A DNA stretch of 64,000 bases from Eretmocerus hayati (Eukaryota; Arthropoda; Insecta; Hymenoptera; Aphelinidae). The notes beneath the pieces were generated by a model. The model had not been told where the DNA came from, did no database searches, and saw nothing but the letters and a program-made list of their open reading frames with translations. The position numbers and the translations under genes were made by a program. Position 1 is the first letter of the stretch; the number at the start of each line of letters is the position of its first letter. Positions 1 to 62,974 of this stretch are shown piece after piece. Location of the stretch: NCBI GenBank assembly GCA_029851415.1, contig CM056742.1:10581736-10645735 (forward strand), given 5' to 3'.

Positions 1-151
1 TTGAGGATAACTTTTTTCACAGTGCGAACATTTGAATGGTCGTTCAATTCCATGAGCATCGCGTAGATGAGCCACCAAACGATTTGTATAGGCGAAACTT
101 TCATCGCACAGCTCACAGACTCGACCAATCATCGCATCAGTTCCATTGCAG
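1..151 (-). CDS. Unit 20 zinc-finger exon, cut by the left edge
   Basis: It starts after ccaacaacag with C plus codons CNGTDAMIGRVCELCDESF and is open for 50 codons to base 1. One full C2H2 finger (CELC...HLRDAH), a linker GIERPFK and the start of a second (CSHCEKSYPQ) are visible. It probably follows the small exon at 859-954. The rest of the unit lies beyond the left edge, so the array does not end inside this window. Confidence 0.75.
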
Positions 152-858
152 CTGTTGTTGGCATTGAAATATTGGAAGATCGCTCACTTGAAAATATCGT
201 AATAAATATCTAATGCAAGCTCCATTCACATGCTCGGGCAGTTCAGATTCACTTTACTGCGATCAGCGTTAGACAGGATTTTAGACAGAATTCGAGATTA
301 GGTATGGAACGTTTGATTTCAAATCAGATTTTACTTTCATCATATTTGCTCAAAACGGCCCATTGCAATAAAATTCTTTTGTGCCACGGCTCGATTTCAT
401 GCAAACAGAAGCCCAGTTTATCACGAAATTTGGTTTTGAATACCAGAAAAATGAGTTGGACTTTCATTTCATAAAGAGATTGACGTTGACCAATATTAAG
501 AAACTAATACTTGAAGTCTCATGGATCATTTGTGACAAACAAAATTTTCACTTGAAGCAGCACATGCACGGTATTATTGTTCACGACATACTTATGAAAT
601 TTAAATGCATTTTTCGTATGTCATCTCAATCTTTCACATTATGAATATACATGCACAAATTGCAAACTGAGAATACTCAATATAAAATTATTTTCGAAAA
701 GACTATTCAAACAAATAATAAATTTAGCATGAAAATAAAATGCTAAAATCCATAGGGAGTCTCGAAATGCAACGATTCTCCAACTACAATAACTACAGAT
801 GTTTCAACTGTAATCAAACATCATTGAAATCAGTCCTAGATACGGATTCATAACTCAC
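152..858. other. Intron between the two unit 20 exons
   Basis: AT-rich sequence with a donor (gtgagt) at the right and an acceptor at the left. The plus strand has an 87-codon open frame at 381-644 with a vaguely finger-like segment (CDKQNFHLKQHMH), which I do not call a gene. Confidence 0.5.
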
Positions 859-954
859 TCTCTGAAAGAATCAATGATCTCTTGTTTGATTTTAACAAGG
901 TCGATATTGTCCAGTGCTGTGAAAGTTTCATCGTGCATGAAATCGCCCCAATTA
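859..954 (-). CDS. Small upstream exon of unit 20 (96 bases)
   Basis: It starts after ttcactttgcag with T plus codons NWGDFMHDETFTALDNIDL and ends SFR plus GA at a gtgagt donor. Both ends are phase 2. It contains LVKIKQEII, a SUMO-type motif as seen at the start of other units. The next exon (151 downwards) begins with one base plus codons and so fits. It has no ATG at a sensible place and no finger. It is accepted on the strong acceptor, strong donor, open frame and matching phases. Confidence 0.68.
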
Positions 955-1285
955 CTGCAAAGTGAAAGTTTTGTTTGTCATACAAAGCTGATTATCGTCA
1001 AATGGTCAACATCGATCATCACAACGTACATCACAATTTCTACTTCAAGTTCCAGCTGCTGACTCGGTACTTATTCTCAATGACGCCGATAAGGAAATGA
1101 AAAATTTGATGAACCCGAAGAGAGATTAGAAGAAGAAGTTTTATTCGGTAGAATGTTCATGTCAGAAAATACAGCAATTCTTATGACAAATAGGAAAACC
1201 TATCAATGTATTAGGACAATACTATAAACATACAAATTCACGGCGATGAAATGTCAAGATCTGTCAAAAAACGCAATAGTCATCA
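955..1285. other. 3' region of unit 19
   Basis: No coding signal. It holds the candidate poly(A) signal of unit 19 and the acceptor tract of the small unit 20 exon. Confidence 0.5.
1140..1145 (-). terminator. Candidate poly(A) signal of unit 19
   Basis: AATAAA on the minus strand, about 140 bases after the unit 19 stop codon and before the small exon of unit 20. This fits a terminal exon. Confidence 0.4.
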
Positions 1286-2240
1286 TCATCGATCGTGTAT
1301 CTTAGCATGCTTTCTCAAAACATTTGCTGCAACAAAAGCTTTCCCACACTTGTCGCATTCAAAATTCTTCTCTCCAGAATGCGCTCTCGTATGATGTACC
1401 AGACTAGTTCTCTGAGCGAAGCTTTTCCCACAAACAGCGCACAAATACGGCCTCTCACCAGTATGTATTCTCAAATGTACTCTCAAATTTTCCCATCTAG
1501 CAAAACTCTTTCCGCAAACATCACAATCAGCAGCGACCCCTACCTCCCCACCACCACCATTTCCATCTTCCCCTTCCTCATCATCATCATCATGCGCGCG
1601 CCGATGCTGTATCAGCGCCCTCCTCGACGAAAGCGCTTTTCCACAAGTTTCACACAACCATTTATCACCAGAATTAGCATGACATCTAGATCTATGCCTA
1701 TCCAAAGCAGCTTGTCTAGAAAAAGAACTAGGACATTGAGGACACTCAATTGGTTTATGGGCAGGCTGATGACAATGTTCCAAATGAGCTTGAAGATTAC
1801 GTTTGTAATTAAAACTTTTAAAACATATGTGGCAACGTTGCAGGTTATCTGGACCTCCAGCATCGTGAAGGGCTCTATGCTCAGCGTATTTGCTACGTTG
1901 CATAAATCCAGCACCGCAGACGTCACATCTGTGTGAATAATTACCAGCATGACGTCGACGATGAACTGTTAAATTAAATTTTTGAGGTGTTGAGTAGTCG
2001 CATAAGTCGCAACGGTAACGACGACTTTCATCGTGTGACAGTAAGTGACGATGTAGATTAAAGGAACTTCGAAATCGACGCTGACATATTTGACAAATAA
2101 ATGGCTGAGCAATATTATGGATGGTAATTTGATGAGCTCCTAGAGCTTTGAGGCTGGTGAAGGGAGTATTGCACTGTGGGCAGCGGTGACGGCCTCGACG
2201 ATGACTTGTGGTGGCGGTGACAGTGGTGGTGGTAGGTGAC
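1286..2240 (-). CDS. Alternative 3' zinc-finger exon, unit 19 (317 aa)
   Basis: It starts after gcgtgttgcag with G plus codons SPTTTTVTATTSHRRG. Ten C2H2 fingers fill almost the whole protein (about 20-316), so it has hardly any spacer. A Gly/Asp/Glu-rich insert (DDDDEEGEDGNGGGG) separates fingers seven and eight. The last three fingers have TGERPY and SGEKNF linkers. It has no PPLP tail and resembles the classical units 1-6 more than its neighbours. The coding GC content is higher than in the flanks. It is inferred to be an alternative end of the ZAD gene. Confidence 0.88.
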
Positions 2241-3564: not shown

Positions 3565-4813
3565 TTACTCGAGCACAAGTTTATCGATCTCAAACTTGTC
3601 TTCATCCATTTCACCAACCTTGTTCAGCATCAAGTGCTCGATATCGTGAACCACCTCGATTCCAATGTCTTCTTCCTGTACCCCATCGACCTCCTCAATC
3701 ATTCCAACCTCTTGTTCTTCTTCAACCTCTTGTGGCTCATGTTCCACCACAGTTTCTTCCTCTAGTCCTTCATCCTCCTCTTCATCTCCTTCTTCCTCTT
3801 CACCACCCTCTTCTGTTTTCTGAATTTCTTTTTGTTTCAGCAACATCTCCGAGATCACAGCATCAACGCTAACATGTGGCATTGGTGGTAAAGGTCCAGG
3901 ATGTCTTTTTCTATGCACAATTAATCCTGGCTTCTGTGTAAAAGCTTTACCACAAATATCACACACATATGGTTTGACTCCAGTGTGCGTGAGCATGTGC
4001 TGTTTATGAGTATTCTGCCTCCTAAATCTTTTTCCACAAACTTCACATGTAAAAGGTCTTGTATCAGTATGTATCCTCATATGTTTCTTCAACGCATCAT
4101 TACCACTGAAGGTTTTCCCACATAATTGGCATGCTGGGCTTCTTTTCTTAGCATGTAAAAGTACGTGTTGCTCCAAAGATTCTCTTGTTGCAAGCTTTCT
4201 ATTACACATATTACATGGAAAAGGCCTAGTATTGTGAGAATGAGCCAAATGCTTTTTAAGAGCAAACCTGTTTCGATAGGTTTTTCCACAAGCTTCACAT
4301 ACGACTTCGCTATCCACTTGATTATGTTGAGACTGTACGTGCATGTAGAGGTCACTTTTCATTTTAAATTTTCGCGGGCAAGAGGCGCACTCAAATCTGA
4401 AACCTTCTGTGTGCTTACGAACAAAGTGCTCACGAAGAGATTGACGACATTTGAAATGATGACCACAATCGCTGCAGATATAATACGAATTTACTTGGCA
4501 ATAAGGATGACTATTTTTTGTGTGCTTTCGAAGTTGATGACGAGTGAGAAAACTACGGTCGCAAAGACTGCATGGATTTGCTAAGCGTACAGGAAGCAAA
4601 GGCTTAATTAGACTTTGTGTGCTGATGATTATTGGATCCAAGGGTGGCTGCGGCACTGTTGGTACTGGTGAATTTGGACGAGGTATTGATGTAGATGGTA
4701 ATGGAGCGTACAGCATCTGCGATGAATTAGTAGATTTGTGATGAATGGTGTCGCCCGGAGTTGAATGCTGTGAGCGGGTTGATGGCTTGCGAAAGCTCCG
4801 CATGGCACGTCGT
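3565..4813 (-). CDS. Alternative 3' zinc-finger exon, unit 18 (415 aa)
   Basis: It starts after ttctcattgcag with A plus codons RRAMRSFRKPSTRS. A Ser/Pro-rich lead of about 80 residues is followed by eight C2H2 fingers (about 80-305). They follow the family C-terminal order (FKMKSDLYMHVQSQH, then CGKTYRN..., CNRKLATRESLEQH). The tail is RKRHPGPLPPMPHVSVDAVI. A Glu-rich region of about 60 residues (EEGGEEEEGDEEEDEGLEEE) follows. It is the shortest single-exon member of this family and lacks the N-terminal fingers found in units 13-17. Confidence 0.89.
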
Positions 4814-5746: not shown

Positions 5747-8372
5747 CTACTGGTTTTTCTGTGTCGCAATTGTGTCCTCCGGCGAAGGTCTAACTTGTTT
5801 AATAATCTCTTCAATATAAATTCTTGGCAGTGGTGGCAATGGTCCAGGGTGTCTTGTCCTCCTGTGACACAATAATCCACACTTTTGAGTGAATGCAGCT
5901 CCACACATATCACACCTATAGGGTTTCTCTCCCGAGTGAATTAGCAAATGCTGTCTCAAACCACTCGACCACATGAAAGTTTTTGAGCAGATATTACATT
6001 CAAAAGGCTTAGCTCCAGTGTGCACTCTCATATGAGTTGTCAACCTTGACATCTTTGAAAATGTCCTTCCGCACTCTTCGCAGACAACTCCCTGTTTGTT
6101 TTCATGCTGTTTCTGAATGTGTTCATCAAGATTAGCTTGAGTCATGAGACTAGTTCTACATAAATGGCATTTGAACTGAGGTTTAAAATGATAATATCTC
6201 TGGTGAAGATTTAACAGTAATCTGTCTCTACATTGCTTTCCACAAAGATCGCACATGACGGGTTTTGAATTTCCATGCACATGCCTCATGTGATTTGTCA
6301 AATCTGACTCGATTCTGTACTTTTTGTTACAGAGCTCGCAAGGGTACTGTGGTCCTTCCGTATGCTTACGGATCTTGTGAAGCTTAAGCCCAGCTTTCTT
6401 CACCGTGACGTAACTACATTCATCGCAGCTCAAAACCAGCCTACCTTTAGCGTCGATAACCTTACCAGAAGGCTGTTTTTTGACACTTTCACCAGGTAAG
6501 TGAACGCCTTCGATAAGCGTTTTGTGCTTGCGATACATGTGATATATCAGCATAGTTTTGTGCCATGTTGTAAATGTACATTCGTGACAGAAAAATTCAG
6601 ATAGAGGTTGATCAGGTGGCAATTCATGCTGCTTTCTGTGCCAGTTCATCGCATTGAGATTGTGATCCTTGCGATCACACTTGTCACACTCGAATGGTTC
6701 TGTAGGTACCGGTTTACGTTTCAAATGCATAACTGACTGATGCCTAACTAAACCATGAGGATTATCAGCTGTAAAATCACACAAAATACAGTCGTAGCCT
6801 CCTTGTTCATTGGGCGTTGGAAAGTGACAAGCGACATGACGTGACATCTCTTTTCGATCAGTGCCCGTAACGGGGCAGAAATCGCAATCGTAAGAAACTA
6901 CAGGAATTTCATGAATTATAACGCTTAGACCCTCGTGATTTCTAGTTGCATGTTTTTCCAGGCTGTTCATATTGCAACCAACGAAACTGCAGTGGTGACA
7001 GGCCAGGCCAGTATGTGCCCAGGCTTTTGGATTGGTTTTGTCAGCGATTATGCGTTTACTCCTCCCCTTCATACCCTTATGCATTCGATTCACATGCATG
7101 TTGAGATGTGATTTTGAAGCTCCTGCATAAGGGCATTCTTCACATTTGAAATTTTTCACCGGAACTTGGACTTTTTCTACAGGAATTAGTGCTTTGACAT
7201 CTGTAATTGGCTGAGTTTCAGTTTTGGGAATATCCTCTTGAGGAGGTAGTTCTTCGTAGTGATCCCACCAGCCACCGTCATCGGTCTCACTCCTGTCGTG
7301 AGTTTTTACTACTACTGGCTGAAGTACAACTTCGGTCGGTGCAGAAGCTTCTGGTTTGATCATTTCGAGAATTGGAATATCTTCGGATTCAGTGAGTTTC
7401 TCAGCTTTTGGAGTTTTAACGACTTTGAGCTCATTCATCCAGACACTTCTATGCATTCGCTTCAAGTGATCTCTAAAATTGACGCGTTTCGTTGATTGAT
7501 AAGAACCGCATGGACAGATGAAAATGAGGTTTTCACTGGGATTACTGAGTATACCGCGGATGATCTCGACATTTTCCTTGTGAAATTGTGGATCTTCAAG
7601 GTTTATTTTTTTCACCTCATCCTCTTTGGCTGGAACCTTGCGTTTCTTAGATTTATTCTCATTCTTGGCTAGTTCAGATTCATTTAAAGGCTTGGAGACA
7701 TCCACAGCATCCTCTTCGCCGGTCTCATTTTTGTTGGCTGGAACTTTTCGTTTCTTCGATTTCTTCTCATCCTTAATTATTTTTGAGGTATCCAAAGGCT
7801 CAAGGAATGTTTCATTGCCAACGGCTTCATTCTTTTTGCTTGGACCCTTCTTGTTCGTAAGATTTTTCTGATCATTAATTGGCTGTGAATTTTTCAAGAA
7901 TTCGATTGATTTACTACCCTTATGGTTTTGACGAGAATGAACGCTGACAGATGCCGCAACATTCGAGGTAAACGTACAAAAGTCGCAGACAAATTTTCCC
8001 GTACTGACAATCTTGTGGTAGCCATTGTAGTAGATTTTGTCACCGTCGATTACAGATTTTTGTCTAGTAGACGGTACGATTTTTTTGTGCTCCGTGGCAC
8101 AGTGTTCGTCTAGCATCTTTTTTTGTGAAAAGTGAGCCTTGCAAGTTTTGCAAAAGTAGAGCTTTACGATCTTGCAAACGGGCTGCTTGGATTTTCCTCC
8201 TTTTCTACTACTGACGTTGACGACGTTCACGTCAATGAGTGGCTTCAGCTGGTCGTTCGGACGTACTCTGATGCGCATCAGTGCTGGTGAAACGGTGATA
8301 TTGCTTTTCTTTGGAGACTGCTGTGACTGCTTTGCCTGGACACGCTTCTTGCGAATTACTAGGCCACGTTGA
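5747..8372 (-). CDS. Alternative 3' zinc-finger exon, unit 17, duplicate of unit 14 (874 aa)
   Basis: It starts after tttccattgcag with T plus codons QRGLVIRKKRVQAKQSQQS. This adds about 31 residues ahead of the first Met (8276-8278). It has about fifteen good C2H2 fingers and one broken one. The third reads ICPCGSYQ..., where unit 14 has TCPCCPFE: the second zinc Cys is replaced by Gly. A Lys/Glu-rich low-complexity spacer contains a repeat of the form KKRKVPA (twice), which resembles a nuclear localisation signal. The tail is RRTRHPGPLPPLPRIYIEEII. Whole-length similarity to unit 14 shows duplication. It is inferred to be an alternative end of the ZAD gene. Confidence 0.89.
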
Positions 8373-9374: not shown

Positions 9375-11070
9375 TCAATCATCGACGATTTCATGTGCCT
9401 CTGCAAACACTTTGTCCTCTAAAAACGCTTCTTCGTCATGTCCAGTAGCGCCAATCTCGTACTCCACGACACCTTCGACTTCCTCAAACTCTACATCCTC
9501 TTCTTCCTCCTCGCCATCCTCATCATCATCCGCTTCAAGCAACTCAATCATCTCTACGACTTGTTTTTCATGCATGGCCCTCTCTTCAGAACCATCAGCC
9601 GCCGCTGCCGCTCTCTCTTTTAAAACGCTTTCGGTAAATTCTCGAACAATATCCTCGATTCGCATGACAGGCAAAGGTGGATGTGGCCCTGGATGAGTTT
9701 TCCTATGACAAATCAATCCTGGCTTTTGTGTAAATGATTTTCCACAGATATCACATACAAAAGGTCTTTTTCCGGTGTGTATTAGAATGTGTTGCCTCAA
9801 TTGTGACTTTCTGGCAAAGGCTTTGTTACACATAAAACAGGCGAATGGCCGAGCACCTGAGTGAACCATCATGTGTCGTTTGAAAGAATCTTTTTTTGTG
9901 AAGGTTTTTCCACATTCGGCGCATACAATTTTTTCACGTTTTTCATGTTGCGCCAGCATGTGTTGTTCGAGATTCTCTTGAGTAACCATTCGTCTATGAC
10001 ACACTGGACACTCAAATTCTGGCTTGAAGTGTGCCCATTTCTGATGTACATAGAGAGAGCCACTATTGAGGCATGTTTTTCCACAGACATTGCACTTTAC
10101 TGGCTTTTCCTTGTGATGGAATCTTACATGGTTAGTCAGATCACCCTTGACCTTGAACTTTTTTGGACAAAATGAACATTCATGTTCGTAGCGATCGGTG
10201 TGCTTGCGAACAAAGTGAGCTTGCAGAGAATGCTTGGAACGGCACACAAAACTGCAAACTTCACAAGGAAACTCGCCGGATTGACCATCAGACGCTGATT
10301 GAGGTTTTTGGTGCTGTTTAGGACGTTTGCGAGATCGAGTTTCGTGTTTCCTTTGAAGGTGTGCGGCAAAAGCTTGTTTTTTAGTGCTTCGATAGTCGCA
10401 AACTGAACAGATGTACACACCATCTTCAAGAATGCAAACTTTACGCTTGTGAGTCCAGGCTACGTGCTTGCGAAAAGCTATTCTTGAATCGAACGTTTCG
10501 GAGCACAATTTGCATTTCAGAATTTTTTTACCGGCAAAAGATTCGTCTCCTGATGCGTTAGAATCAGGTTCTTTTGGCTCGTGGTGAACTTGTCCAACGG
10601 TTTCGTTTTCATCGCCTGCTGCATTGAACCCCAGGAAGTCACGAGACTCTTCGTCTGACCCTGTCGATAATTGTCGACTCACCATGTTGAGCTTTCCTAG
10701 CCTGATCGAACCAGATTCAAGCTCGACATGGTAAAGCTCACCAACGGCATCATCTGATTTTTTTGACTGAATCTCAACACCATTAAAGCGTGTCGGACAT
10801 TTGAGTTCTTGTGACATTTCCTCATCGTGGTAATCTGTTAGCTCGTAATCGTCATCTTCATCCAATGTTGAGTCAGGTTGAATATGAAGCTCGTCCCAGT
10901 CATTTAGTTCCGGTATGGCTTCCTCTTTGATTGGTGACTCGTCCTCTGGGACAAAGGCGTAGTAAGGGTGGCCGTCAAACTCAAGGATTTGCCATTTTCT
11001 CATCACAACGGATTCGCGCTCGAAGATGAAGATTCCACGATTGTTTGGGCCTGCAGCTGATGACAATGAC
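9375..11070 (-). CDS. Alternative 3' zinc-finger exon, unit 16 (564 aa)
   Basis: It starts after tgctgtttcag with G plus codons SLSSAAGPNNRG. The first 180 residues are acidic, with PIKEE, a SUMO-type motif. Nine C2H2 fingers (about 185-470) follow the family order, including CPVCHRRMVTQENLEQH. The tail is RKTHPGPHPPLPVMRIEDIV. About 80 residues of Glu/Asp-rich sequence (EDGEEEEEDVEFEEVEGVV) end the protein. It is inferred to be an alternative end of the ZAD gene. Confidence 0.89.
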
Positions 11071-12851: not shown

Positions 12852-15264
12852 CTAGAGAGAAATATCATTTATTATCTCTTCGGGGCACTCTTCAATAATT
12901 TCAGATAATTGGAGACTCTCCAGTGGATCATCATGCTGGTCACTTGCATAACTCAGTACATTGAATTCTCCATCCTCAGGATTTTCAGGTATGTGTATAA
13001 CGGGCTCGTCCTGTAATATACTTGGCTCATTTGGCAGACTGGGCCCATCAGATCCAGAAGATTCAGTATTATTTGCACCAAGTGTAACTTCCTTGGCTGG
13101 TCCATCACTAGTACTAGGCCCTTCCTGTGTGACTTTTTTAATAATTTCATTAATAAACACCACCGGTAGTGGATCTTTAGCACCAGGATGACTTTTTCGA
13201 TGTCCAATCAAGCCAGGTTTCTGTGTAAAAGCTTTTCCACAAATATCGCAAACATACGGTTTGACTCCAGAATGCGTAAGCATGTGCTGTCTATAAACTC
13301 CAGCCCTTCCAAAGCTTCTGCCACACACTTTACATTTGAACGGCCTCTCACCAGTGTGTGATCTCACATGCTCTTTCAACTTGTTAATTTGATCAAAGCT
13401 TTTACCGCAATAATGGCAAAGTGGTTTCACTCTGTTGAGATGCTGTCTCTCTATATGTTGATTCAAATTTTCTTGAGTAACCATACGCCTTGCGCAGTGA
13501 GGGCATTTGAATTTAGGTGTGTAGTGCTCATTTTTTCTATGCACATGTAATGCATTTGTATTTCGACAAAGCTTGCCACAAATATCACATACTGAAGCGG
13601 AGTTCATATGTAGAAATTTAATATGAGCGGCGAGGTCAATTTTGGTTTTGTACTTTTTTCCACACATTTCGCACTCATATGTTGGTTCTAGAGTGTGTTT
13701 GCGCTCAATATGAAGCTCAAGTTTGAATATATGTTTTGTAGTAAAATCACAGCCTCCACATTTGAATTCCTCACCTACGGGTGGCTTTATGGGAGGTTTG
13801 CCACGACGTCGTTTCTCTGTTGGATGTTTACGTCTTATATGAGCATTCAGGGTGACTCTTCTTCTAGCTTTGAATTCACACAAATGACATGGGTGAGTTA
13901 GATCTTCGGAGTCGTAGATTGGTTTAAACTTGAGCTCTTGTCTTTTTCGCGCGAGCCACTCAGCATTATGCTCTCGACGGATATGAAATCTCATAGCTCC
14001 TCGTCCTTCAACGACTGTATGACAATATTCGCAAATGTAGTTGTTACGAACTCTTGTTGACGGCGGTATTTGGTTTGCCTCACGATCCCTTTTCTCTTCG
14101 GCACTATCGGTAATAACTGTTTCTGAAAGACTGGAGTCTTCATCGAGCTCAGTTGCATGCAGTGTATCGTTTGATTCAGATACAAGCGTTGAATTTTCAA
14201 TTGCTACCGTCTGATCAAACACAAGCGGCTGGTGTTCTATCTCAAATTCGAGTTCTTGCTGTGGTATCATATCCACCACTTCTAAAATTAATTGTTGTTC
14301 TATTTGAGATTCCTCAGGTATATCACTTGTGGATACGATTTCTTCTTGTGCAAGATCTTCATCGAGAATTTCATCTACTGGAGAAGATGGCCTAACCATC
14401 ATTTCAGACTCAGTCGTTATCAAAGGCTGATTAAAACTAGGCGATTGCTCCAATGACTGATCTTCTCCATCATAATCCTCTGGTACTGGTGATTTTTGCA
14501 AACCATATATGTGAATATAATCGTGATCGCCACATTCTTGAGTTAGTTTGGGCTCCTCTTGTAGGGCAGTTTTTGAGGTTTCTAGTTTTACTTCGTCTGA
14601 TGTCACCTCTTCTTTCATCGAATCTTCTACATGCTCGTCTTCGACCTTTTCAGGATTTTGTGCAGGTTTACTTGGCGAAGGTGGAGGTGAGTGTTCGGGC
14701 GATTGCGAAGATTTTACGGGGTGTAGCTGTATTGTTATCGAGGGTTTCTTAACATTTAGTAATTTTGAAAGGTGATGCTTTAGAGTAATGTGCCGTGTCA
14801 GTGTAGCTCGGTCAAGCGTGACAAAATTGCATACTTTGCAGTCAAACGGTGGTTCGAGATTCGATTTGATTGCGTTGATATGGGGATGCATCGATTCGGT
14901 GTGATGCCGAAGTAAATGCAACTGTGAAAAATATATATTGCAGTGCTTGCACATGTACATGTAGACTGCTGGATTATTCATTGATTCTATAGAAAGATCT
15001 TCTGCAGGAACGTTACAGGTAATACTGCTAGATTCGGACACTTCTTCAGTGAAGCTCGAAGTCGTACCTTCGATCGTAACCTCTTCAAAGTCGCTCGTAT
15101 CAGAAGACTCTGCTTTGATATTCTCAGATGAAATTTTTTCGTTTCTCTCTTCTTCCGTTATTTGACTATCGGACGAATCTACGCGTTTACGTTTACGACG
15201 TTTAGGAGATATTCTGGTACAGCTATCATTGCTCATGCTTTTTTGATCACTGCTGCTACTCCTC
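12852..15264 (-). CDS. Alternative 3' zinc-finger exon, unit 15 (803 aa)
   Basis: It starts after tctctttttcag with G plus codons RSSSSDQKSMSND. Two N-terminal fingers (near residues 100-160) are followed by an acidic, Ser/Glu-rich spacer of about 250 residues with VKLE-type motifs. Nine more C2H2 fingers follow to about residue 700. The C-terminal block follows the family order; its tail is RKSHPGAKDPLPVVFINEII. A further acidic/Ser-rich tail of about 80 residues follows. The frame stays open upstream of the acceptor for about 60 codons; I treat that as chance read-through of the intron because the consensus acceptor and phase fit the position chosen. Confidence 0.88.
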
Positions 15265-16364: not shown

Positions 16365-18897
16365 TCAATCTGAGAACTCTCGTTCAAGTTCTTTTCTTTC
16401 AAATTCCTCTTCTTCCTGCAGCAATTCATTGAGAACGTGATCTATTGTCACTCTAGGCAGCGGTGGTAGCGTCCCTGGGTGCATCTTTCTATGGCTGATC
16501 AATCCAGTTTTCTGCACAAAAGATTTTCCACAAATATCGCAAATATAGACTCTCTGACCTGAGTGTATGAGCAAATGTTGCCTCAAGCCATTTCTCCTAC
16601 CAAAAGCTCTCAAACAAATTTTACAAGTGTACGGTTTGAGACCGGTATGCACCCGCATGTGAACCTTGAGCCTTGCTAATTTCTTAAACGTTTTTCCACA
16701 CTCTTCGCAGACTGACTCTTGAGTAGTTTCATGTTGTTTCAAAATGTGCTCATCAAGATTAGCTTGACTAACCATACGTCTATGGCATACAGGGCATTCA
16801 AATTCAGGTTTATAATGTGCAAATTTCTGATGTAAGTATAGAAGATTGCTATTTCTACACTGCTTTCCACAAACGTCACACATTATGGGTTGTTCTTTAT
16901 GCTGAAATCTCATATGATTTGTAAGATCTGCTTTGACCTTGAATTTCTTTCCGCACTGATCGCACTCGAAATTCCACTGATCCGTGTGCTTGCGTATAAC
17001 GTGAACTTTGAGTACATGCTTGTTTTTGGTAATATAATCGCAATAATCGCAGTGCATAACCGGTTCTCCCAATTCATTAAATTCTTCAACTAACTCGCCT
17101 CTCAAATTTACTATTGGACCAGCAGCATATGGACAATCTGGACCTTCAACTAGTTCCTTGTGCTTACGCTTCATATGAGTAACCAGCTGTGATTTGTTCC
17201 AAGTTGAAAAATTACATTCGTTGCATATAAATATGGGAATCTGCTCGCCTTCTGGTAAATCATGTTGCTGCCTATGCCAAGCCATAGCTTGACCATTTAA
17301 ACACTTGTAGTCACACAAGTCGCACTCATAGCATTCGACCATAGTAGGAGCTCTGGGTCTCAAATGTTTAATTGATATATGTCTTTGTAAACCCATACGA
17401 GATGAAGTATCGTAGCTACACATAGTACAAGTGTACATTCCTTCCTCGTTCATTTCATGTTTGTGAGTCTTGAGATGATTCTGCATATCTTTGCGATCAG
17501 AACTCTTAAGCTCGCACATGTCGCAATCAAAAGATATGACAGGAACCTCGGTAATCATAACTTTTAGACCCTCGTGATTGCGTCCAGAATGTCTTTCAAG
17601 ACTATTTATTGTGCACGCAACGAAGGTACAGTAGGCACAGGCATAACCCGTGCAAGCGGCGGCGCTTCGTTCTCGGCGTCGTTTCTGACCGGATTTTGGA
17701 CGTGAACTGTCTGGCGTCTTATTTTTCGGCCGTTGTTGCTTAGGATTGGGTGCCTGTGGCTGCTTTTTCTTTCTTTTAAGATGTTCATTAAACTTTGGCG
17801 TAGGCTCACCAGGATGCATACGACTCATGTGAGAATGAAGGTTACCCTGAACCCATGAGTTGTATGGACACAAAGGACATTCAAGTTTGTTGCGTACAAC
17901 AAGCTGAGTACTGCCATCCTGACCGACAATTATTTCTTCAACAATCTGACCTTCGACAATAGTTGTAGCATCCTCGCCAATCAGCTCCTGAAGTAAAAAA
18001 CTTTGAGCATCAAGGACTTCTTCCTGCTCATTTTCAGCATCTGGTTGTTCCTGCTTCACGACATCATCATTAGGAGTTTCTAGCTCTGATTGGGGTACCC
18101 GAATCAACTTGATGTCGCGTTGAAGCTTGTGAGACAAGCTTTGGATCCAAACATCACGGTGAGCCCGTTTCATATGTGCCCTGTAAGCTGAACATTTTGT
18201 AGTTTCAAAAGGACAACAGGGACAGGTTCGAAGTAGATCATCGCTAGTATCTTCAAGAAATTTTCGAACTATATCACTTTTGTCGTCCTCTTGCTCATCT
18301 GAAGATTTTTCTTGTTCTGAAGCCTGGGCCATGTATTCGACGTCGTCATCATTACCGACCTCGTCGAATAGTAACAACTGCTGCGTGCAATCGTCTGGTG
18401 GCTCATCAGGAATATAAGCCTTCGGTGACGTTCTGTTCTTGATATTTTCAACATGTTTACGCTGTGAATGTGAAGATACGGTAGTCCGGTTAAAAGATTG
18501 GAAGGGACAGTAATTGCAGACATATTTTCCGCTTCCAAGAACTCGATGGTAGCCCATGAAGTATGCACGATCACCGTCGGTAGGGGGAGGACGTTTTGCC
18601 GATTGTTTTATTCTTCTATCAGGATGCATTTGAGCCCTGTGCCGATCTACCATTAGTCTGGTTGGGAAGAATATGTTGCATGGCCTGCACATGTAAAGAA
18701 GACGCTCTCGATGAGCTGGATTTGGTGTTATATCAGTACAACTTCCGTCGAGAGAAACTTCCTCGAATTCCGAAGATTGATCTGTTTCAGGCTTGGCTGG
18801 TGAAGTTTTTGCTACTGGCAATGAGGGCTTCTCCTGCGTCTTTGCTTTTTTTAATTGGATGTTGAGTATCTTCTGTTGACTTGGACGATATGGCAGT
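16365..18897 (-). CDS. Alternative 3' zinc-finger exon, unit 14, 16 fingers (843 aa)
   Basis: It starts after ccaaatttcag with A plus codons LPYRPSQQKILN. It is the unit with most fingers: about sixteen C2H2 between residues 70 and 812. Acidic and Gln-rich spacers separate the early ones (with VVKQE), and a close-packed C-terminal block follows. The layout of the whole protein, including spacers such as YFMGYHRVLGSGKYVC and ITEVPVISFDCDMC, matches unit 17. The two are therefore full-length duplicates. The tail is RKMHPGTLPPLPRVTIDHVL. It is inferred to be an alternative end of the ZAD gene. Confidence 0.9.
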
Positions 18898-25250: not shown

Positions 25251-25326
25251 CTAGAAATAATGAATATTTCACCAATTTCACAACAATATTGTTGAAATAT
25301 TGAGCAATGAACTCTCAAAAACTCAC

Positions 25327-25663: not shown

Positions 25664-25863
25664 CTAAAGATCAAGTGGAGACACAAACTTGTCAAATCAA
25701 ATGCAATATCAACCGCTTCAGTGGGTTGATAGTTGTCAAGCATACATAAATCGGTAAAAATTTATGCGGCTTTTAGGAAACTTTGAGGATTGATTGTTAC
25801 TACTAAGTAGAATGTAGCTCCTAATTATAAAAAATGTGATTCTATCCCTAAAGTAAAGAATAC

Positions 25864-26004: not shown

Positions 26005-26084
26005 CTAATTAAATTAGTGTAGCACGGAAGCAACGATCTTATTACCTATGAGAATGTGACGATAATAAGCGCAGCGAACTTAGT

Positions 26085-47448: not shown

Positions 47449-49132
47449 CTACAATATAGTAACTTTTTCCTCAAAGAACTCCTCCTCCTCCTCCTCGACC
47501 ATCTCTTCACCTTCGGCCATCTCCTCCTCCTCGACGACTTCTTCTTCGACCATTTCTACTTCCTCAAAATTTTTTTCCATATTCTCATCATCAACTTTCT
47601 TGATGGACGATTTCGAATCCTCTAAAGTGACACCGTCATTTTGACTCTCCGCCGATTTTTCGACTTCAGACACACTTTCAACCTGTTGCCGATGAGGCCT
47701 TTTATTTTTACCAACAAACCTCCAAGGATACCTTCTTTCTGCAGGTTCAAGCTCATTTGGATGATGTTTTCTTAAATGCAGGGTCAATGTACCAGTTTGA
47801 GTATAACTTTTACCACACACGTGGCATGTATGCGGTTTTTCACCTGTATGAACCACAATATGTTTTTTCAAATACTTCCTCGCTGCAAATCCTTTACCAC
47901 AATATTCACAAATTTCAGGCCTCTCACCAGAATGTATCCTCATATGTAACTTCATATACCCTTTTCGCATTTTTTTTGAGCAAATATCGCATGTGACCTG
48001 ATCTTCTCCAGTATGTTTAGCCATGTGTTCTCGAAAACAAGCTTTATAAACTGATTCGTAGCCACACTCTTCGCAATGATAAGTTTTTCTACCCTTATTT
48101 TCCACGTGGAAGGATTGAATGTGTTTTTGAAGGTACGATTCGTGACGAAAGCTTCTATCGCATTGATTGCATGGTAAGAGTTTTGTATCCCGTTTGTGAG
48201 CTGCCATATGAACTTTTAGAGATTGCCTTGAGTAGAAGACTTTTCCGCAAGTGGTGCAGGGCTCGTTGAGCTCATCGTGGATTGAAGTTATGTGTTTCCT
48301 AAGTTTGTTGCTCGAATTGAATTTTTCTCCGCAAATCTGACAGACTAATAATTCTCCATGGGCTGCAATCATATGAACTTTGAGGTACTTGTCTTTCTTG
48401 AAAACCTTGTTGCACTGCGTACACGGAGCTATTTGATTTTCACCTTCAAAATGAATCTTCTCTGAGGTTTCGCGTTGTCCATCAGTCTCGTTGGTTTTTT
48501 TCTCTTTTTTGGGATAGATAATTCGAGGTTTGCGAATTTGTTTACAGCTTTCTGGTAACGCATTCATATCGACGAGACCGCAGTTGTTAATGTGACGAAT
48601 GTAATTAGGTTTTGAGGTGAACCTGGCTCTACACATTTTGCATGTGTGAATGGCAATGGGTTCACGAAGAGCTGCTCTGGTACGAGCTATGGATCTTTCA
48701 GTTTTGTGAATTATGAGAGATGAGCTATCAGGGAAGTTTTCATGGCAAGAATCGCACTCGTATGCGATCATGTTGACAGTTGGTGATTCGGTCTCGATCA
48801 CTTCTTCATTTAGTTGATCTTCTCCTTCATCTCTGTGGATAACTTCTTCGTCTCCAGAGTGGAATTCTAATCGGAAATCACCTGTGTTGGTATCTTCTTC
48901 GTCGGATGAAACGATGACGATAGAGTTGTCAGTAGCTCGGTTGATCGAGTTTTCAGGAGGGTGATATATGATCACCTGATGGTTGTTGATGGTTCCGAGT
49001 ATGTTTATTCTTACATCAGAGTTGACGGAAGGAGCGGCGTTGGTGTTGATAATCTGTTTGACGTCTTTCGATAATTTTGGTTTTGGCTTGCGTTGCAGAA
49101 TCGATGGGATCCTCGTCCGCTCTCGCTTGGGC
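47449..49132 (-). CDS. Alternative 3' zinc-finger exon, unit 4, long acidic tail (560 aa)
   Basis: It starts after tcaatttcag with G plus codons PKRERTRIPSIL. A basic, Lys/Pro-rich start is followed by an acidic stretch. About ten fingers lie between residues 125 and 475. The first lacks a clear second His, and the second ends HINNC (C2HC). One finger (CSKKMRKGYMKLH) is shortened by one residue in its helix region. After the last finger (HLRKHHPNELEP...) the protein ends in about 60 residues that are mostly Glu and Val, with repeated EEVE/EMVEEE units. Such acidic tails can act as activation or interaction segments; that is inference. Confidence 0.88.
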
Positions 49133-49736: not shown

Positions 49737-50991
49737 TCAATTCGTCCCGATAATGAGTTCAGATTCTGCATCATTAACTTGGCGGGTATGAACCATGATA
49801 GGTCCACTGGAAACATCGGCATCAGCATTATTAGTCGCAGAAGTACTTCGATTAACGCGTTGCCTTGTACTACCGCACTTATGCTTCTTCAACCAAACGT
49901 TTTGTGAAAAGCACTTTCCACAAACGTTACACTTGTAAGGTTTCACTTTTGTATGAGTCCTCTGATGAACTACCAAATTTTTCATTTGTCTAAATCCCTT
50001 AGAACAAACATCGCAACTAAACGGCTTTTCATCGCTATGTATCCTTTTGTGTATCTTTAAATAATAATTACTGGCCACTGGTGTTCCGCACTCGTCACAG
50101 ATGACCTTAGCACCAGTGTGAACTTTCATATGAGTTTTTACAGCATTTTTCCAAAAACTGGAGTAATCACACACGTCGCATGTATACTTTTTCTGTCTAC
50201 CCTCTGGTGCATGTATCGTCATGTGAAGCGTCAAACTTCTTTTATCTGCATAACAAGCTTTACAAATATCACATGAAAATGGTTTTGCTCCTGTATGACT
50301 GATACAATGCCTTTCCAAGACAATTTTAGATGCGAATCCTTTGCCGCATTCGTCGCACCGTAGATTAAAATCATCAGCGTGATTTTTCTCATGTTTCTTG
50401 ATGTAATTTCTTGAAAATGTTGTAAAATCGCAGTACTTGCATTTAAATTCACGCCTCTTATGCTTGCTGGCAATATGATTTTCGCAGCCAATTTTCGTTT
50501 TGAATAATTTCTGACAGCTTTTGCATCGATATGCTAGGCGATATTTGCGACTCTGTGGATGCTCAACCTGCATGTGTTTTACGCATTGTCTAACGCTAGG
50601 AAATACGTGGTCACACCTGTTGCACTGATACAGATTTCGAAAAGCGCCGGATTCTAGTTTGACCAAAAGATTTCGAATTGGACCATGATCACGGATGTCA
50701 TTGACGTTCACTTCGTCGTCGTCGTCATCCGCCTCAGATTTCATAGGCTCGTCGGTCTCACTTTGAAATTGCTGATCCTCGCAGTCTGTTCGCATCGAAG
50801 CTACTGAAGCTATTCTAATGCCAGACTCATCGAAGTAATCTTCACCATCACCTGAAACATCTTCGATACTGTGTTCCTCATTTAGATGATGCTTGATCTC
50901 GATATCTTCGGGGCCACCATCGCTGTCTACAGCCTCAGCCTCCTCGTATTTGTCCTTCGTCTCTGGATCATCCACGGCAGCGGAAGATTTT
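49737..50991 (-). CDS. Alternative 3' zinc-finger exon, unit 3 (417 aa)
   Basis: It starts after gtctgtgcag with A plus codons KSSAAVDDPETKDK. The first 115 residues are strongly acidic and include PMKSE and LVKLE, both SUMO-type motifs. Nine fingers follow (about 120-370). The last has the form CxxC...HxxxC. Several fingers have aromatic CDYSSFWK-type centres instead of the standard CGKxF. The tail is short and Ser/Asn-rich (TSATNNADADVSS...). The spacing between fingers is regular. It is inferred to be a DNA-binding alternative end of the ZAD gene. Confidence 0.88.
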
Positions 50992-53486: not shown

Positions 53487-54654
53487 TCAAGTCGGAATAA
53501 GAACGATTCCGCTCGTGGGATTAGGCTCAAGCTCATCAACTTCATCCAACTCTTGTTGATGCTGTCTAAGTACAGCTTCTTCCTGCTCGGGCGATAATAA
53601 TAAATTTCTCTGCTGCAAATGTATCTGGGTCTCATGCTCCAACTGCTGTCTAGCTGTATGCTTTGCATGAGTTCTCATATGCGAATTCAACATAGTCTTT
53701 GAAGCAAAACTTTTTTTACAAGTCTCGCATGGATAAGGCCTATCACCAGTGTGGCTTCTGAGATGAACAACAAGGGTAGTCCTCTGGGTAAAACTTTTTT
53801 CACAATGTGTGCACTTGTGAGGTCTTTCACCCGTATGAGTTCTGCGGTGCACACTAAGGTAATTTTGCGATATGAAGCCTTTGTTACAGACATCGCATAC
53901 ATGGGGCTTCTCCCCTGTATGTTTACGAACGTGAACTTGCAGATACGTCTTGCTCGAAACGCTCTTACCGCATATGTGACAGACAAATTCCATTGGAGGT
54001 AGTCCACCCTTACTATGTGTCCTCATATGAACCAGGAGTACCTGCCTCCTGCAGAAACGTTTGTCGCAAATCTCACATCGATGTTTCTTTTGAGGCGCCA
54101 CGTAGTCTGGCTGATGAAGTTTTGAGTGAAGTCTTAAACCTTGACGGTAACGGAATGTCGCTTGGCATACTCCACATTGGAATGGTTTATCATCATCTTC
54201 GGTATCATTATTAGATATATTTCCATCAAGAATATCTTCTTTGCATTGGTGAAGATTAAGCTCTTCACGATAGGGGCTGGTATAGCCACAATTTTCACAG
54301 GCATAGAGATGAGTTTCGAGGTCTCGCTGTGAGTGTTCAAGAGCTTCGTGCTCACGAAAATCGTCTTCGCCTTCAAAAGTTCTTGAACATATGCCGCAGG
54401 CGAATACAACGACTTGTTGTTGTTCGTCGTGGTCCATTTCTGTGTGAGTTCTGTAGTGAACTTCAAAACTGGACTCGTCGACGAAAGTCTCGTTGCACAG
54501 GCTGCATTGAAGTACAGAGTGTTGGTGTCGGACTAGACCATTTGGTTTGGTCTCAAGGTCGAGAGGATGCTCTTGCTGTTGAAGATGATCCAGTTGATGA
54601 TGCGGTGAAAACATCAGCGGGTCTTCTTCGGAGCCATTTTGTACCACGAGGTAT
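53487..54654 (-). CDS. Alternative 3' zinc-finger exon, unit 2 (388 aa)
   Basis: It starts after tgatttgcag with A plus codons YLVVQNGSEEDP. Nine fingers lie between about residues 48 and 340. The third (CENC...HLHQC type) has Cys in place of the last His. The last four are classical, with TGEKP, TGERP and TGDRP linkers, which is typical of contiguous DNA-groove binding. After the fingers comes a Gln- and Glu-rich helix-forming tail of about 50 residues, ending ...SGIVLIPT. A Gln/Asp-rich segment precedes the fingers. The opening codons resemble those of unit 1 (A then TAC). It is inferred to be an alternative end of the ZAD gene. Confidence 0.88.
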
Positions 54655-57213: not shown

Positions 57214-58372
57214 TCAATGTTTCTTCATGTGATTGAGCATGATTGTCCTTGTAACAAATCCCTTGCCACATAAAGTACACGTGTACGGTCTCTCCCCGGT
57301 ATGATATCTTCGATGAACAGTAAGAGTAGAAGCTTGAGTGAATGATTTTCCGCACATGGCGCAAAGGTAAGGCCTCTCTCCCGTGTGAATTCTTTGATGC
57401 ACGACGTAATACTTTCGATGTGTAAATCCCTTACCACAGACGTCACATATGAGTGGGCGTGATCGGTGTACGGACTTGTGAGAGATGAGAGTTTCGATAG
57501 TGGGAAACTCTTTGGCGCAAGTCTCGCACGTATATGAATTGCTTGCCTTGTTAAACAAGATTTCACTCTTGTCTTTAGCTCCGGATGTGGCTGAACTCGA
57601 TTTGCCGCTACCATCGGATGCTGTGGCTGGCTTGTGGGTTTTGGCATGATGGTTGTACAAGTTACGCGTCTCAAATCTCATATGGCAGTGAGGACAAGAA
57701 TAAGGTTTATCCTGGCCCTCGGCCATTTCATGCATTCGTTTGTGTTTGTCAAGCAGTGTGCGGTATCGAAAGCTTGCTTGGCACTTGTCACAGGAGAAAT
57801 TTTTGGACTGCTGCGGTTGCTGAGGCTGAGGAGGTGGTTGATTGATTAAGCCACCACCACCACTATTACTATTGGATGCTTGATATTGTGAAGTCTCAGG
57901 AGAGAGACTTGGATCTGGTGACGAAACCTGGTGAACTACAATGGAATCTTGAAAATTTGGCGATTGTAGAGATAATTCATCAGACACTTGGATGTGACTT
58001 GAAGCTATAAACGACCTCGAGCACAAGTGGCAGGTAAAACGCATCAGTTGAGCCTCACCAAGCTGCTCGCGATGGCTTACTCGAAGATGATAGGTTAATT
58101 TTGTACCACAGTTTGGACATGAGTGGCTCTCGGTGAAGAGCTGCACGTGGTCCAGGTAACCCTGCTGTTCTAGCTGTTGGTCATGTAAAATTTGGCTGGG
58201 GCTTAACGTAGGGGATGAAAGGGGTATGTGTAAGCCAGCAGAGGCGAGTACGTTGAAATTTTGCTGCTGAAGGAGATTGGGGTAGCCAGAAGCGAAGCTC
58301 AGCTCGTCACTTTCCGCAGTGGGCGAAAGAATTTGACGAAGCATGCCGGAGAGACCACCAAATGACTCGTAT
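57214..58372 (-). CDS. Alternative 3' zinc-finger exon, unit 1 (385 aa)
   Basis: This terminal exon starts after tctttacag with A plus codons YESFGGLSGM..., and so can follow the shared GG end. About the first 190 residues are Gln-, Ser- and Pro-rich, including a short glycine run. They include two imperfect fingers: SCPNC with short His spacing near residue 85, and CHLC near 110 lacking a proper His pair. Six good C2H2 fingers follow (about 195-385), the last three or four joined by TGERPY linkers. The protein ends directly after the last finger (LNHMKKH). It is inferred to bind DNA as one isoform of the ZAD gene. As the unit nearest the hub, it would be the default partner if splice choice favours proximity. 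Confidence 0.88.
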
Positions 58373-61300: not shown

Positions 61301-61631
61301 CTACCTTACCAGCAAAACCGCGATAGCTGTTGAATACCTAGTCCTAAAAAAGTTTCGCAAGTCCAATGACTAGATGAAAGACGAACGATTAAGGGCTTCT
61401 CAACTAATGCTGATAATGAACAGATTGCATGGATGGGAACGTAAGAAATTTAAAATCAGGCACGAGACTTGTGAACTCAGGGGATAATGAATAGTTACTC
61501 TCCAAACGCTAAGTGAACAGAAACGGGGGAAATCGCGGAGATGAAGTTACAATAATGGCAGGGTGAGTGTGTGTGTGGGCCACAACCTTTCATCTTTGAC
61601 TCTCGATCTGTGACGAGAAACTTGAACTTAC
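58373..61631. other. Intron between unit 1 and the shared hub
   Basis: AT-rich, with a somewhat CpG-richer part at about 59810-60000 and a TGACGTCA site at 60558-60565. No exon that I can support. Confidence 0.5.
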
Positions 61632-61632
61632 C
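61627..61632 (-). promoter_or_regulatory. Common 5' splice site (branch-point donor)
   Basis: Read on the minus strand, this is CTGG followed by gtaagttc, a strong donor. It ends the last shared exon after two bases (GG) of a codon. All 20 downstream unit acceptors have the matching phase, from about 3.3 kb to about 61 kb away. In the inferred gene model it must choose one of them, or be joined in trans. Confidence 0.7.
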
Positions 61633-61803
61633 CAGTTTTAGGATCGTTAACTTCGGTAGGCTGCAGGGACATGTTGGAGATATCGGCGATTTTCTGTTGT
61701 AATCCAGAGGGACCAGCTTCATCGCATGGAATTGTAACGAATGATGATTGGTCTAAGACTCTATCGCTCTGGTCTTCTTCATTTTCTTCTTTCACAGGCA
61801 TAC
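61632..61803 (-). CDS. Shared hub exon C: last common exon before the alternative ends
   Basis: The exon has 172 bases. It starts after tgacttcag with GT, which completes a Gly codon from exon B, and continues MPVKEENEEDQ... It ends ...VNDPKT followed by GG at a gtaag donor. It therefore leaves a phase-2 end (two bases of a codon). A VKEE SUMO-type motif is near its start; the rest is a polar linker without a known domain. The first exon of every zinc-finger unit to the left begins with one base plus whole codons, exactly the phase needed to follow this exon. I infer that this donor is the branch point of the gene. RNA data would be needed to prove the joins. Confidence 0.82.
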
Positions 61804-62358
61804 CTGAAGTCACATAAAATATTGGAATTGAGTATGGGATCAAAATTACAAGAATGCATGAAATAAATGAAGCCATTACAATTTGTAATAAGTAAAGGCA
61901 GAATAAATTTTTGACAAACGCTCTTATAAATTGTACCAAGGAACTTTGTCGAGCTTGGCATGGTGTAAAGGAAGGAGAGTTAGATAGACCGACTGAAATC
62001 GGCTGGAAAAGTGATGCACGGTGTACTAGGACGCAGCACTTGCACGAGAAAAATGTATGAGTATCGTATCTCACATTCAAATTTCAACGCCATAAATCGG
62101 GTGATGAGAACTCAGCTCACTCCAAGTCGTATCGATATCGATCTTAGTACTTCCTCCCTAGATCACCTCGCGCATGTGAAGAATGACTCACTCACTGCTA
62201 AGCCGAGCCTGTCTAGGCACGTGTTTACAAATATGAAACCGGAAACCTCAAATCCTAGGACTATATAGAGCCAAGCGCGGAAAACTAGATGGGCTCGCTG
62301 AGGTGCAATAAAAGCGTTCAATAAAAGCGTTTAAAAAGCTATGAACAGGAATCCTTAC
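61804..62358. other. Intron between shared exons B and C
   Basis: Donor gtaagg at the right, acceptor tgacttcag at the left. No feature inside. Confidence 0.65.
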
Positions 62359-62659
62359 CTTCGTTGTCACATCCATCATCATCGTCGTCGTCGTCGTCAT
62401 CTTCTACTTCGTCTGCTAAGTGGCTGACTGAGGTTTGACTTTGGTCATTTGCTGATGCGCTCGAACTGGCAACAGCTTGTACTGTAACGGTACCAGAGGT
62501 ATCCATTGGAACTGAGGCAAATTGTTGTTCACCATCAACAGGCATTGTAATGATAGTCATATTCTCAATCATTCCCATGTCCACACTGTTTTGACCTCCA
62601 ACTTGTACGACTCTACCCTCTAATCTACTATCACTAGCTTGTTCCTGCTTCATCACATT
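62359..62659 (-). CDS. Shared hub exon B: acidic linker with poly-Asp run
   Basis: The exon has 301 bases. It starts after caattttcag in phase 0 (N-V-M-K-Q-E...) and ends at a gtaagg donor in phase 1 (...D-N-E-G). It encodes a low-complexity linker rich in Ser, Thr, Val and Gln, and then a run of nine Asp made from repeated GAC/GAT codons around 62372-62400. No domain is recognisable. A VMKQE sequence at the start fits the SUMO acceptor pattern (large hydrophobic, Lys, any, Glu). The linker probably acts as a flexible spacer between the dimerising ZAD and the DNA-binding fingers. The Asp repeat is a likely length polymorphism. Its status as coding rests on matched splice phases on both sides and an uninterrupted frame. 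Confidence 0.82.
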
Positions 62660-62806
62660 CTGAAAATTGAAAATAAAGGTTACGACCATAAATATCACGT
62701 CTTGGCAATGTAAATTGAGCAGAAGTGATTTTGAATACCAATTGCAATATGCTAGGGGCTTCATTAGGAAACAAAGAAGATTTATGAGTTTGGTAATGTA
62801 ACTTAC

Positions 62807-62974
62807 TGAGACGAGGACTTCTGGAACTCCATCCTCTAGGCCACCAACTTCGCCAAGCCATTGTAACAACTGTTTTTCAGCATTAGCTGTTGTGTTCCAG
62901 AACTGATAAAATAACTCTACTTTGTACAGGCAGTCGTCACATATTTTTTTGGGTAATTTGTCATCTCTCGAAAC
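62807..62974 (-). CDS. Shared hub exon A: second half of ZAD zinc-binding domain
   Basis: This exon has 56 codons and is open throughout. It starts after a good 3' splice site (tgttccag) and ends at a gtaagt donor, both in phase 0. It begins VSRDDKLPKKICDDC. The CxxC pair, followed by a helix (LYKVELFYQFW...AEKQLLQWL), is the C-terminal half of a ZAD, the insect zinc-finger-associated domain that binds zinc through two CxxC pairs and forms dimers. The first CxxC pair must lie on an earlier exon, which I could not find with confidence before position 64000. The next exon (62359-62659) continues in phase 0. Known for the family: ZAD proteins are nuclear and usually have C2H2 fingers at the other end. 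Here the fingers come from alternative exons to the left. The ZAD call rests on the motif by eye, not on a profile search. Confidence 0.85.

Follow-up and report, generated by a model that had tools for sequence, protein, structure and literature searches.

One ZAD head and 24 zinc-finger ends: a candidate lola-like gene in Eretmocerus hayati

The 64,000-nucleotide stretch of Eretmocerus hayati DNA analysed here (the window), together with its flanks, very likely carries a single lola-like gene, in which one ZAD head is followed by 24 alternative finger tails that would serve as alternative last exons in cis. In the proposed scheme, four constant exons would encode the ZAD, a zinc-coordinated dimerisation domain, and an acidic linker, 260 residues in all, and splicing would run from the phase-2 donor of hub exon C, the final constant exon, to any one of 24 acceptors downstream. 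Behind each acceptor would lie a unit having a C2H2 array and a stop of its own, and the choice among units would be one of alternative last exons, each with a separate 3' end. The product would be up to 24 transcription factors with a common dimerisation head and differing DNA-binding tails. An arrangement of the lola/mod(mdg4) type with a ZAD in the place of BTB had been suggested by the initial annotation, and it is supported by the phase, the strand, the single zf-AD, the open frames and the chance-level number of candidate first exons. The exon anatomy, phase, strand, intact frames and diverged contact residues are read from the sequence.

Within the window, the zinc-finger regular expression (regex) matched 177 times on the minus strand versus once on the plus strand. 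The window contains all or part of 20 finger units, the first (u01) starting at 58372 and the last (u20) at 954. Each is on the minus strand, which bears out the 20 units previously placed downstream of the hub on the hub strand. Beyond window base 1, u20 extends to -1334 and four extra units (u21-u24) follow, and the whole array consists of 24 units with 248 regex fingers, all on the minus strand, over about 89 kb from the start codon to the last stop. The earlier range of 3-16 fingers per unit was replaced by 3 to 18 once u21-u24 were included, and the unit length is 280-953 residues. Every unit (24/24) has its own stop. The frame from acceptor to stop is open as a single exon in 21/24 units, and multi-exon models are proposed for the other three, u05, u11 and u20 (Table 1). 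At the internal junction of u11, the donor (6.6) and the acceptor (3.6) are both of phase 0 and the joined frame is open, and the second acceptor of u20 is weak (-2.7). The plus strand within the locus holds no finger array, only single regex matches, and just one of its 23 ORFs of at least 100 aa between -21000 and 61632 lies outside the units. Four minus-strand ORFs in the inter-unit gaps gave no Pfam match.

Table 1. Hub exons and finger units in window coordinates (negative positions lie beyond window base 1)
Feature	Position	Strand	Fingers	Remarks
Exon 1, ZAD first half	68338..68198 (C2:10649933-10650073)	-		upstream of window; joined frame with exon A
Hub exon A, ZAD second half	62807..62974	-		phase 0 to 0; acceptor 1.7, donor 1.5 (both low); zf-AD profile positions 35-73, 31.1 bits (genome search)
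Hub exon B, acidic linker	62359..62659	-		phase 0 to 1; acceptor 4.8, donor 6.8; best codon score in proposed frame
Hub exon C, last common exon	61632..61803	-		phase 1 to 2; acceptor 3.5, donor 5.2, ACTGG|GTAAGT
u01	57214..58372	-	6	acceptor 58372, matching phase
u02	53487..54654	-	8	
u03	49737..50991	-	8	
u04	47449..49132	-	8	
u05	43447..45462	-	10	two exons proposed, 45462..45302 + 44666..43447; first-exon donor 1.2
u06	38450..40034	-	14	matching acceptor tops within 150 nt; over longer range 39843 (phase 2) 6.3 vs matching 4.7
u07	35661..36975	-	8	
u08	32089..33622	-	6	regex fingers, weak in Pfam
u09	29879..31019	-	3	regex fingers, weak in Pfam
u10	27056..28553	-	9	
u11	24747..25663	-	5	exons 25663..25327 + 25250..24747; matching acceptor 25663, score 1.7
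u12	22958..24146	-	9	
u13	19980..21840	-	12	matching acceptor second, 2.7 vs 3.1
u14	16365..18897	-	16	
u15	12852..15264	-	11	top three acceptors 15264, 15327, 15381, all matching phase
u16	9375..11070	-	9	matching acceptor tops within 150 nt; over longer range 10945 (phase 2) 4.1 vs matching 1.5
u17	5747..8372	-	15	
u18	3565..4813	-	8	
u19	1286..2240	-	10	no Met before first finger
u20	1..954 in window	-	7	three exons proposed, 954..859, 151..-203, -858..-1334
u21	-4542..-6978	-		beyond window
u22	-8529..-11388	-		beyond window
u23	-13221..-15564	-		beyond window; no Met before first finger
u24	-18436..-20764	-		beyond window; no Met before first finger

The three phase-matched hub exons ending in a phase-2 donor were confirmed, with positions, donors and phases as first described. 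The ZAD half recognised among them turned out to be the second half (exon A), and the first half was located in exon 1, upstream of the window. When the two exons were joined, a full-length zf-AD was obtained (54.4 bits, cut-off 28, profile 1-73 of 75), and residues 11-86 of the joined hub aligned to the solved chain 7pok_A (E 0.0006). At E 0.001, Pfam gave no match to the hub other than zf-AD, and no BTB was detected in the shared exons. The locus has the N-terminal zf-AD of the ZAD-ZNF transcription factors, with the C2H2 arrays of the 24 units placed C-terminal to it. Genome-wide, 21 zf-AD matches were obtained, and the one within the locus is that of the hub. Over 17.7 kb, two other ZAD loci each showed a single finger array, whereas an equal span here has four units. 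No relatives of the hub were found among prokaryotic genome contigs.

The acceptors at the starts of the finger ORFs agree in phase with the hub donor. The top-scoring acceptor near the ORF start had the hub-matching phase in 21/25 finger ORFs, as compared with 77/241 interior windows and 45/156 control ORFs (binomial P 1.2e-7 and 1.6e-8). A strong acceptor (at least 2.4) was on top at 21/25 ORF starts versus 46/241 interior windows and 47/156 control ORFs (Fisher P 1e-10 and 4e-7). Strong interior sites themselves favour the matching phase above a third (21/46), and against this stricter baseline 21/25 gives P 9e-5. The scan covered ORFs with at least three regex fingers, leaving outside it the fingerless first exon of u20 and the first exon of u11, whose best acceptor has the matching phase. 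The claim that all unit acceptors match in phase stands for the chosen sites; it does not stand for the top sites of u05, u06, u13 and u16, which are of another phase over the longer range. The finger ORF of u05 is itself without a matching acceptor, and its proposed first exon is not independent evidence, because the search that found it required the hub phase. The open frame of a unit begins, in the median, 32 nt before its acceptor (u05 left out). Constant 5' exons followed by 3' acceptors of a shared phase, the feature of hub genes of the lola/mod(mdg4) type, are found here; by best score u13 is an exception, over the longer range u06 and u16 are as well, and u05 depends on the phase-constrained search.

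It is very improbable, in our judgement, that the locus consists of separate zinc-finger genes in tandem, which have lost or never possessed a ZAD, next to a single ZAD gene whose transcripts include only u01 or a small number of units. In favour of this view, neighbouring units are similar to one another, as is expected of tandem duplicates, Drosophila ZAD genes form clusters (PMC7655104), and some Met precedes the first finger in most units. With regard to the last point, the proposal that nearly every unit lacks a convincing start codon held for 3/24 units (u19, u23 and u24), which have no Met ahead of the first finger, and not for the others, in which a Met is present, though often only after tens of residues; the finger exon of u05 is also without it. 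A start at an internal Met would leave untranslated the open frame between it and the acceptor. The stretch from the acceptor to the first Met showed a weak coding signal, with the in-frame score best in 8/15 units scored (units with at least 15 codons before the first Met; u05, u11 and u20 left out). In the 23 inter-unit gaps, the scan looked for one-exon coding starts, namely an ATG exon ending in a phase-2 donor; 5' ends that are untranslated or divided over two exons would escape it. Such an exon (donor at least 3, length at least 30) occurred in 4/23 gaps against a Markov mean of 2.65, which is the chance level, and laxer settings gave 6/23, 7/23 and 12/23 against 4.2, 7.15 and 10.7 expected by chance. 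Independent genes with coding first exons of their own were rejected on this ground. The three shortest gaps are only 331, 600 and 604 nt, and the 331-nt gap, together with the phase agreement and the three units without a Met before the fingers, also argues against such genes. Moreover, the D. melanogaster clusters consist of ZAD-ZNF genes (PMC7655104), whereas this locus has one zf-AD match only.

The units have diverged widely, with a best-hit identity of 23-51% between them. In the six long units (15-18 fingers), the mean pairwise identity was 0.34 at the contact positions versus 0.51 at the other helix positions, and the DNA-contact residues are the most variable positions. Since 21/24 units retain an unbroken single-exon frame in spite of this divergence, these frames have been preserved over a long period. 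The same unbroken frames speak against the view that many units are decayed remnants and a minority is in use, which we consider improbable, although the fingers of u08 and u09 were weak among the 9/24 units on which Pfam was run (u01 and eight more), and u20 is divided into several exons, with one internal acceptor scoring low.

Sequence signals for the choice among the shared head's 24 tails were also searched for. AATAAA was not enriched after the unit stops (13/24 versus a shuffle mean of 11.2; opposite strand, 17), and poly(A) signals were dropped as support. Mutually exclusive exons of the Dscam type are characterised by docking and selector sequences that pair. Here, the longest exact complement between the hub intron and the unit flanks averaged 8.3 versus 8.5 in random windows, and no k-mers or motifs were shared upstream of the unit acceptors above random. 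In this test, which was one of short exact matches with u05 taken at 44666, the complementarity was no better than in random windows, and Dscam-type pairing was rejected. The hub intron has one more GGTAAG, at 61310.

The same products would arise by trans-splicing, if units or blocks of units had their own promoters and were joined to the hub transcript, as in Drosophila mod(mdg4), which makes over 30 isoforms in this way (PMC12692577). The length of the locus and, perhaps, the additional GGTAAG may be counted on its side. On the other hand, the acceptor exons of mod(mdg4) are distributed over the two strands (PMC12692577; PMC4667647), whereas those of the present locus lie on the hub strand only; because every unit is on that strand, trans-splicing is not required. 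Homologues of mod(mdg4) in one beetle, one bee and one ant are cis-spliced (PMC4667647). We regard trans-splicing as unlikely, and the tails are probably joined to the head by cis-splicing to alternative last exons.

If all 24 arrays carry an identical ZAD, as proposed, every isoform could pair with every other. Twenty-four ends would give up to 300 pair types, in place of the 210 calculated earlier for 20 ends. Isoforms with the common ZAD would then pair freely, which would connect different DNA sites or enlarge the range of targets. That the gene is a combinatorial DNA-bridging system, with up to 300 pairings between DNA sites, is a tentative extension that we hold to be possible but rather doubtful. 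If it is true, the choice of the last exon in each cell would set which DNA sites come together, with pairings that are impossible for separate ZAD genes having private homodimer interfaces.

No gene with a ZAD hub and many finger ends was among the literature matches listed (open-licence papers, without automatic annotations), which does not prove its absence, and loci of this kind could be broken up or overlooked by standard annotation. Among the nearest known systems is lola of Drosophila and Hymenoptera, with its constant 5' exons and one branching hub exon before many 3' coding ends. The head of lola is BTB, that of this locus a ZAD. As in lola, duplication seems to have involved only the fingers, with a single head retained ahead of them. 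The common 5' exons of lola branch from one hub exon to over 180 alternative 3' coding ends in Nasonia and 58 annotated ones in Apis, and these ends are 500-900 bp long (PMC5000498), as compared with 280-953 residues and 3-18 fingers here. In the Nasonia gene set, fruitless with 17 isoforms ranks second after lola (PMC5000498), and therefore its isoform ranking reports no 24-ended ZAD gene, which counts against the proposed design. Also similar is mod(mdg4), in which shared 5' exons are combined with alternative 3' exons into over 30 isoforms (PMC12692577); it differs in its BTB head, its mostly FLYWCH tails, its use of both strands and trans-splicing (PMC4667647; PMC12692577), while the present locus has a ZAD head, C2H2 tails and a single strand. 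The cucoid gene of culicine mosquitoes is a ZAD-ZNF gene whose isoforms differ at the 3' end, but its three transcript isoforms differ in that the shorter ones are missing some of the same five fingers, and interchangeable finger arrays are not part of that description (PMC9810180). The ZAD-ZNF genes (Pita, ZIPIC, Zw5, M1BP, Nicknack and others), of which D. melanogaster has 91, with 37 in 13 clusters (PMC7655104), share the N-terminal ZAD, the linker and the C-terminal C2H2 array. The ZADs of Pita, ZIPIC and Zw5 form homodimers only (PMC5509000). As a rule these genes have one finger array each, whereas here one ZAD would serve 24; the pairing partner and the DNA target, which normally evolve together, would be separated by the one-head design, and free pairing among the isoforms of one gene is predicted.

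The initial annotation had given the hub, the shared minus-strand 5' part of this gene, three exons with one half of a ZAD. Exons A, B and C with their phase-2 end were borne out, and the start lies further upstream, in exon 1. When the four exons were joined, they encoded 260 residues matching positions 1-73 of the 75 in the zf-AD profile with 54.4 bits (cut-off, 28 bits). One solved chain matched the hub, 7pok_A (LD15650p; E 0.0006), which we take to be a ZAD. Presence of a ZAD indicates an arthropod, and most likely an insect. The donors of exons 1, A, B and C scored 6.2, 1.5, 6.8 and 5.2, and the acceptors of exons A, B and C scored 1.7, 4.8 and 3.5, the weak sites being both of exon A. 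An in-frame TAA lies immediately past the hub donor (61632..61628, GGG TAA), and therefore intron retention would yield a ZAD-only protein, of which the gene might make use. An ion-channel exon (Ion_trans_2, 55.6 bits; L002:8360-8734, minus) shares the strand of exon 1 and lies about 14 kb 5' of it.

Features of the locus and its flanks (negative positions and those above 64000 lie outside the window)
Feature	Position	Strand	Remarks
Hub exon 1	68338..68198	minus	upstream of window; ATG start, phase-0 donor AAG/GTGAGA; ZAD first half
Hub exon A	62974..62807	minus	phase 0-0; ZAD second half only
Hub exon B	62659..62359	minus	phase 0-1
Hub exon C	61803..61632	minus	phase 1-2
Adjacent long ORFs, 491, 1834 and 559 aa	-58737 to about -50200	plus	outside window
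975-aa ORF	105484	minus	outside window
Tandem array, repeated peptide-like	139136-140838	readable on both strands	outside window

In the window, which spans C2:10581736-10645735, C2H2 matches numbered 177 on the minus strand and one on the plus strand. The array extends below base 1 with the remainder of u20 and four large units, its last base being -20764, and in the 80 kb flanks examined on each side no minus-strand finger match was found between -20764 and -80000. Altogether there are 24 zinc-finger units (u01-u24) with 248 regex fingers, from 3 (u09) to 18 (u22) per unit; the many-ended array thus stands, with the earlier counts of about 20 ends and 3-16 fingers revised. A single-exon open frame runs from acceptor to stop in 21 of the 24. 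Of the other three, u11 and u20 were counted after joining of proposed exons, and the count for u05 covers the finger exon, to which a proposed first exon is added. A Pfam domain search covered nine of the 24 units, with u08 and u09 weak. The three long flanking ORFs presumably represent an LTR retroelement, and the 975-aa ORF presumably a LINE reverse transcriptase.

Acceptor phase was analysed in 25 minus-strand ORFs with at least three fingers, taking the best-scoring AG of any phase no more than 150 nt from the in-frame stop that precedes the ORF, with generic splice-site weights rather than weights trained on the E. hayati genome. The best acceptor was in the phase compatible with the hub donor in 21 of 25, versus 77 of 241 windows inside unit ORFs and 45 of 156 non-finger ORFs in the same scan (binomial P 1.2e-7 and 1.6e-8, respectively). 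Under a stricter baseline, confined to windows or ORFs whose best site scored at least 2.4, 19 of 21 unit ORFs matched, versus 21 of 46 interior windows (Fisher P 5e-4) and 8 of 47 control ORFs (1e-8); 21/25 tested at the rate 21/46 gave P 9e-5. Such a site was present at 21 of 25 unit starts, versus 46 of 241 interior windows (P 1e-10) and 47 of 156 control ORFs (P 4e-7). With the search extended as far as the first finger, the best acceptor matched in 16 of the 21 ORFs in the window and failed to match in u05, u06, u13, u16 and the second exon of u11. Four ORFs among the 25, one of them a match, were later read as internal exons (u05 exon 2, u11 exon 2, u20 exons 2 and 3), and their post hoc exclusion gave 20 of 21 (P 1.8e-9), leaving u13, with a matching site of 2.7 versus 3.1 in another phase. 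The matching phase, initially assigned to all unit acceptors, is commoner than expected by chance among the best sites, with u13 among the exceptions. Three good acceptors of u15 (15264, 15327 and 15381), all in matching phase, may provide variant starts.

Separate genes with their own coding first exons were sought in the 23 gaps between the stop of one unit and the acceptor of the next, which measure 331 to 3412 nt (u05 taken from its finger exon). An ATG exon with a phase-2 donor occurred in 4 of 23 gaps versus a Markov mean of 2.65, and in 2 on the opposite strand; laxer settings gave 6, 7 and 12 versus 4.2, 7.15 and 10.7. Candidates were at chance level at all settings, and this explanation was rejected for coding ATG first exons, the scope of the scan, outside which untranslated first exons fall. 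The stricter threshold would lose some real sites, because a donor of the hub itself, one out of four, has a score of 1.5. Nearly every unit had been said to lack a convincing start codon of its own; this is partly borne out, as three units (u19, u23 and u24) contain no Met ahead of their first finger. The open frame of a unit begins upstream of its acceptor, at a median distance of 32 nt, as expected if coding starts at the acceptor. In the stretch from acceptor to Met, the in-frame codon score was best in 8 of 15 units and, in 11 of 15, higher than in the intron ahead of the acceptor, lending weak support to coding from the acceptor.

Most likely, transcription would start at or 5' of exon 1 and pass through the whole array, the donor at 61632 would be spliced to one unit acceptor, and the selected unit would contribute the stop and 3' end. 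Trans-splicing of units to the hub transcript is possible, but it is not required, since units and hub share a strand. Neither poly(A) signal enrichment after units nor pairing elements between the hub intron and unit flanks were found.

Each unit is 23-51% identical to its best match (local alignments). Supported tree groups unite units that lie close together, u01 and u02 in one group and u21-u24 in another, in a tree with 15 of 21 inner branches open and u01-u02 a meeting of long branches. This grouping and the level of identity fit old tandem duplication. Six long units (u14, u17 and u21-u24; 15-18 fingers) were aligned over the 16 fingers of u14; mean pairwise identity was 0.34 at DNA-contact positions (-1, 2, 3, 6), 0.51 at helix positions 1, 4 and 5, and 0.53 in the hairpin part. 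From the low contact-position identity, the binding specificities have probably diverged.

A zf-AD search of the genome (692 Mb, 17 contigs) gave 21 matches, one at the present locus. Four of the other 20 were viewed: three had a single array of fingers in intervals of 6.0-7.7 kb, and the fourth had none in 6 kb. Such short intervals alone are a weak control, because at the present locus only u01 sits that near exon A. Two of these loci, extended to 17.7 kb, a length that would span u01-u04 here, still had a single array each. BTB domains are abundant in this genome, with at least 151 matches (150 of 293 candidates scored), many in tandem clusters (e.g., C2:177.06-177.16 Mb).

The head of lola is a BTB domain. 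Because the hub has no BTB match, lola by descent was ruled out. Among the literature matches listed, none described a gene with a ZAD head and many finger ends. In Nasonia, lola has more than 180 alternates off one hub exon and fruitless is second with 17 isoforms (PMC5000498), and therefore no gene of this kind is reported there; a counterpart may be absent, unexpressed or split. D. melanogaster ZAD-ZNF clusters are interpreted as whole-gene duplications (PMC7655104), three ZADs studied form homodimers only (PMC5509000), and cucoid is expressed as three isoforms, with some of its five fingers missing from the shorter ones (PMC9810180). The gene mod(mdg4) produces more than 30 isoforms through trans-splicing (PMC12692577; PMC4667647), and its head is BTB, whereas that of the present hub is ZAD. 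By its domain the present gene belongs to the ZAD-ZNF family, and from its sequence we infer that it operates like lola.
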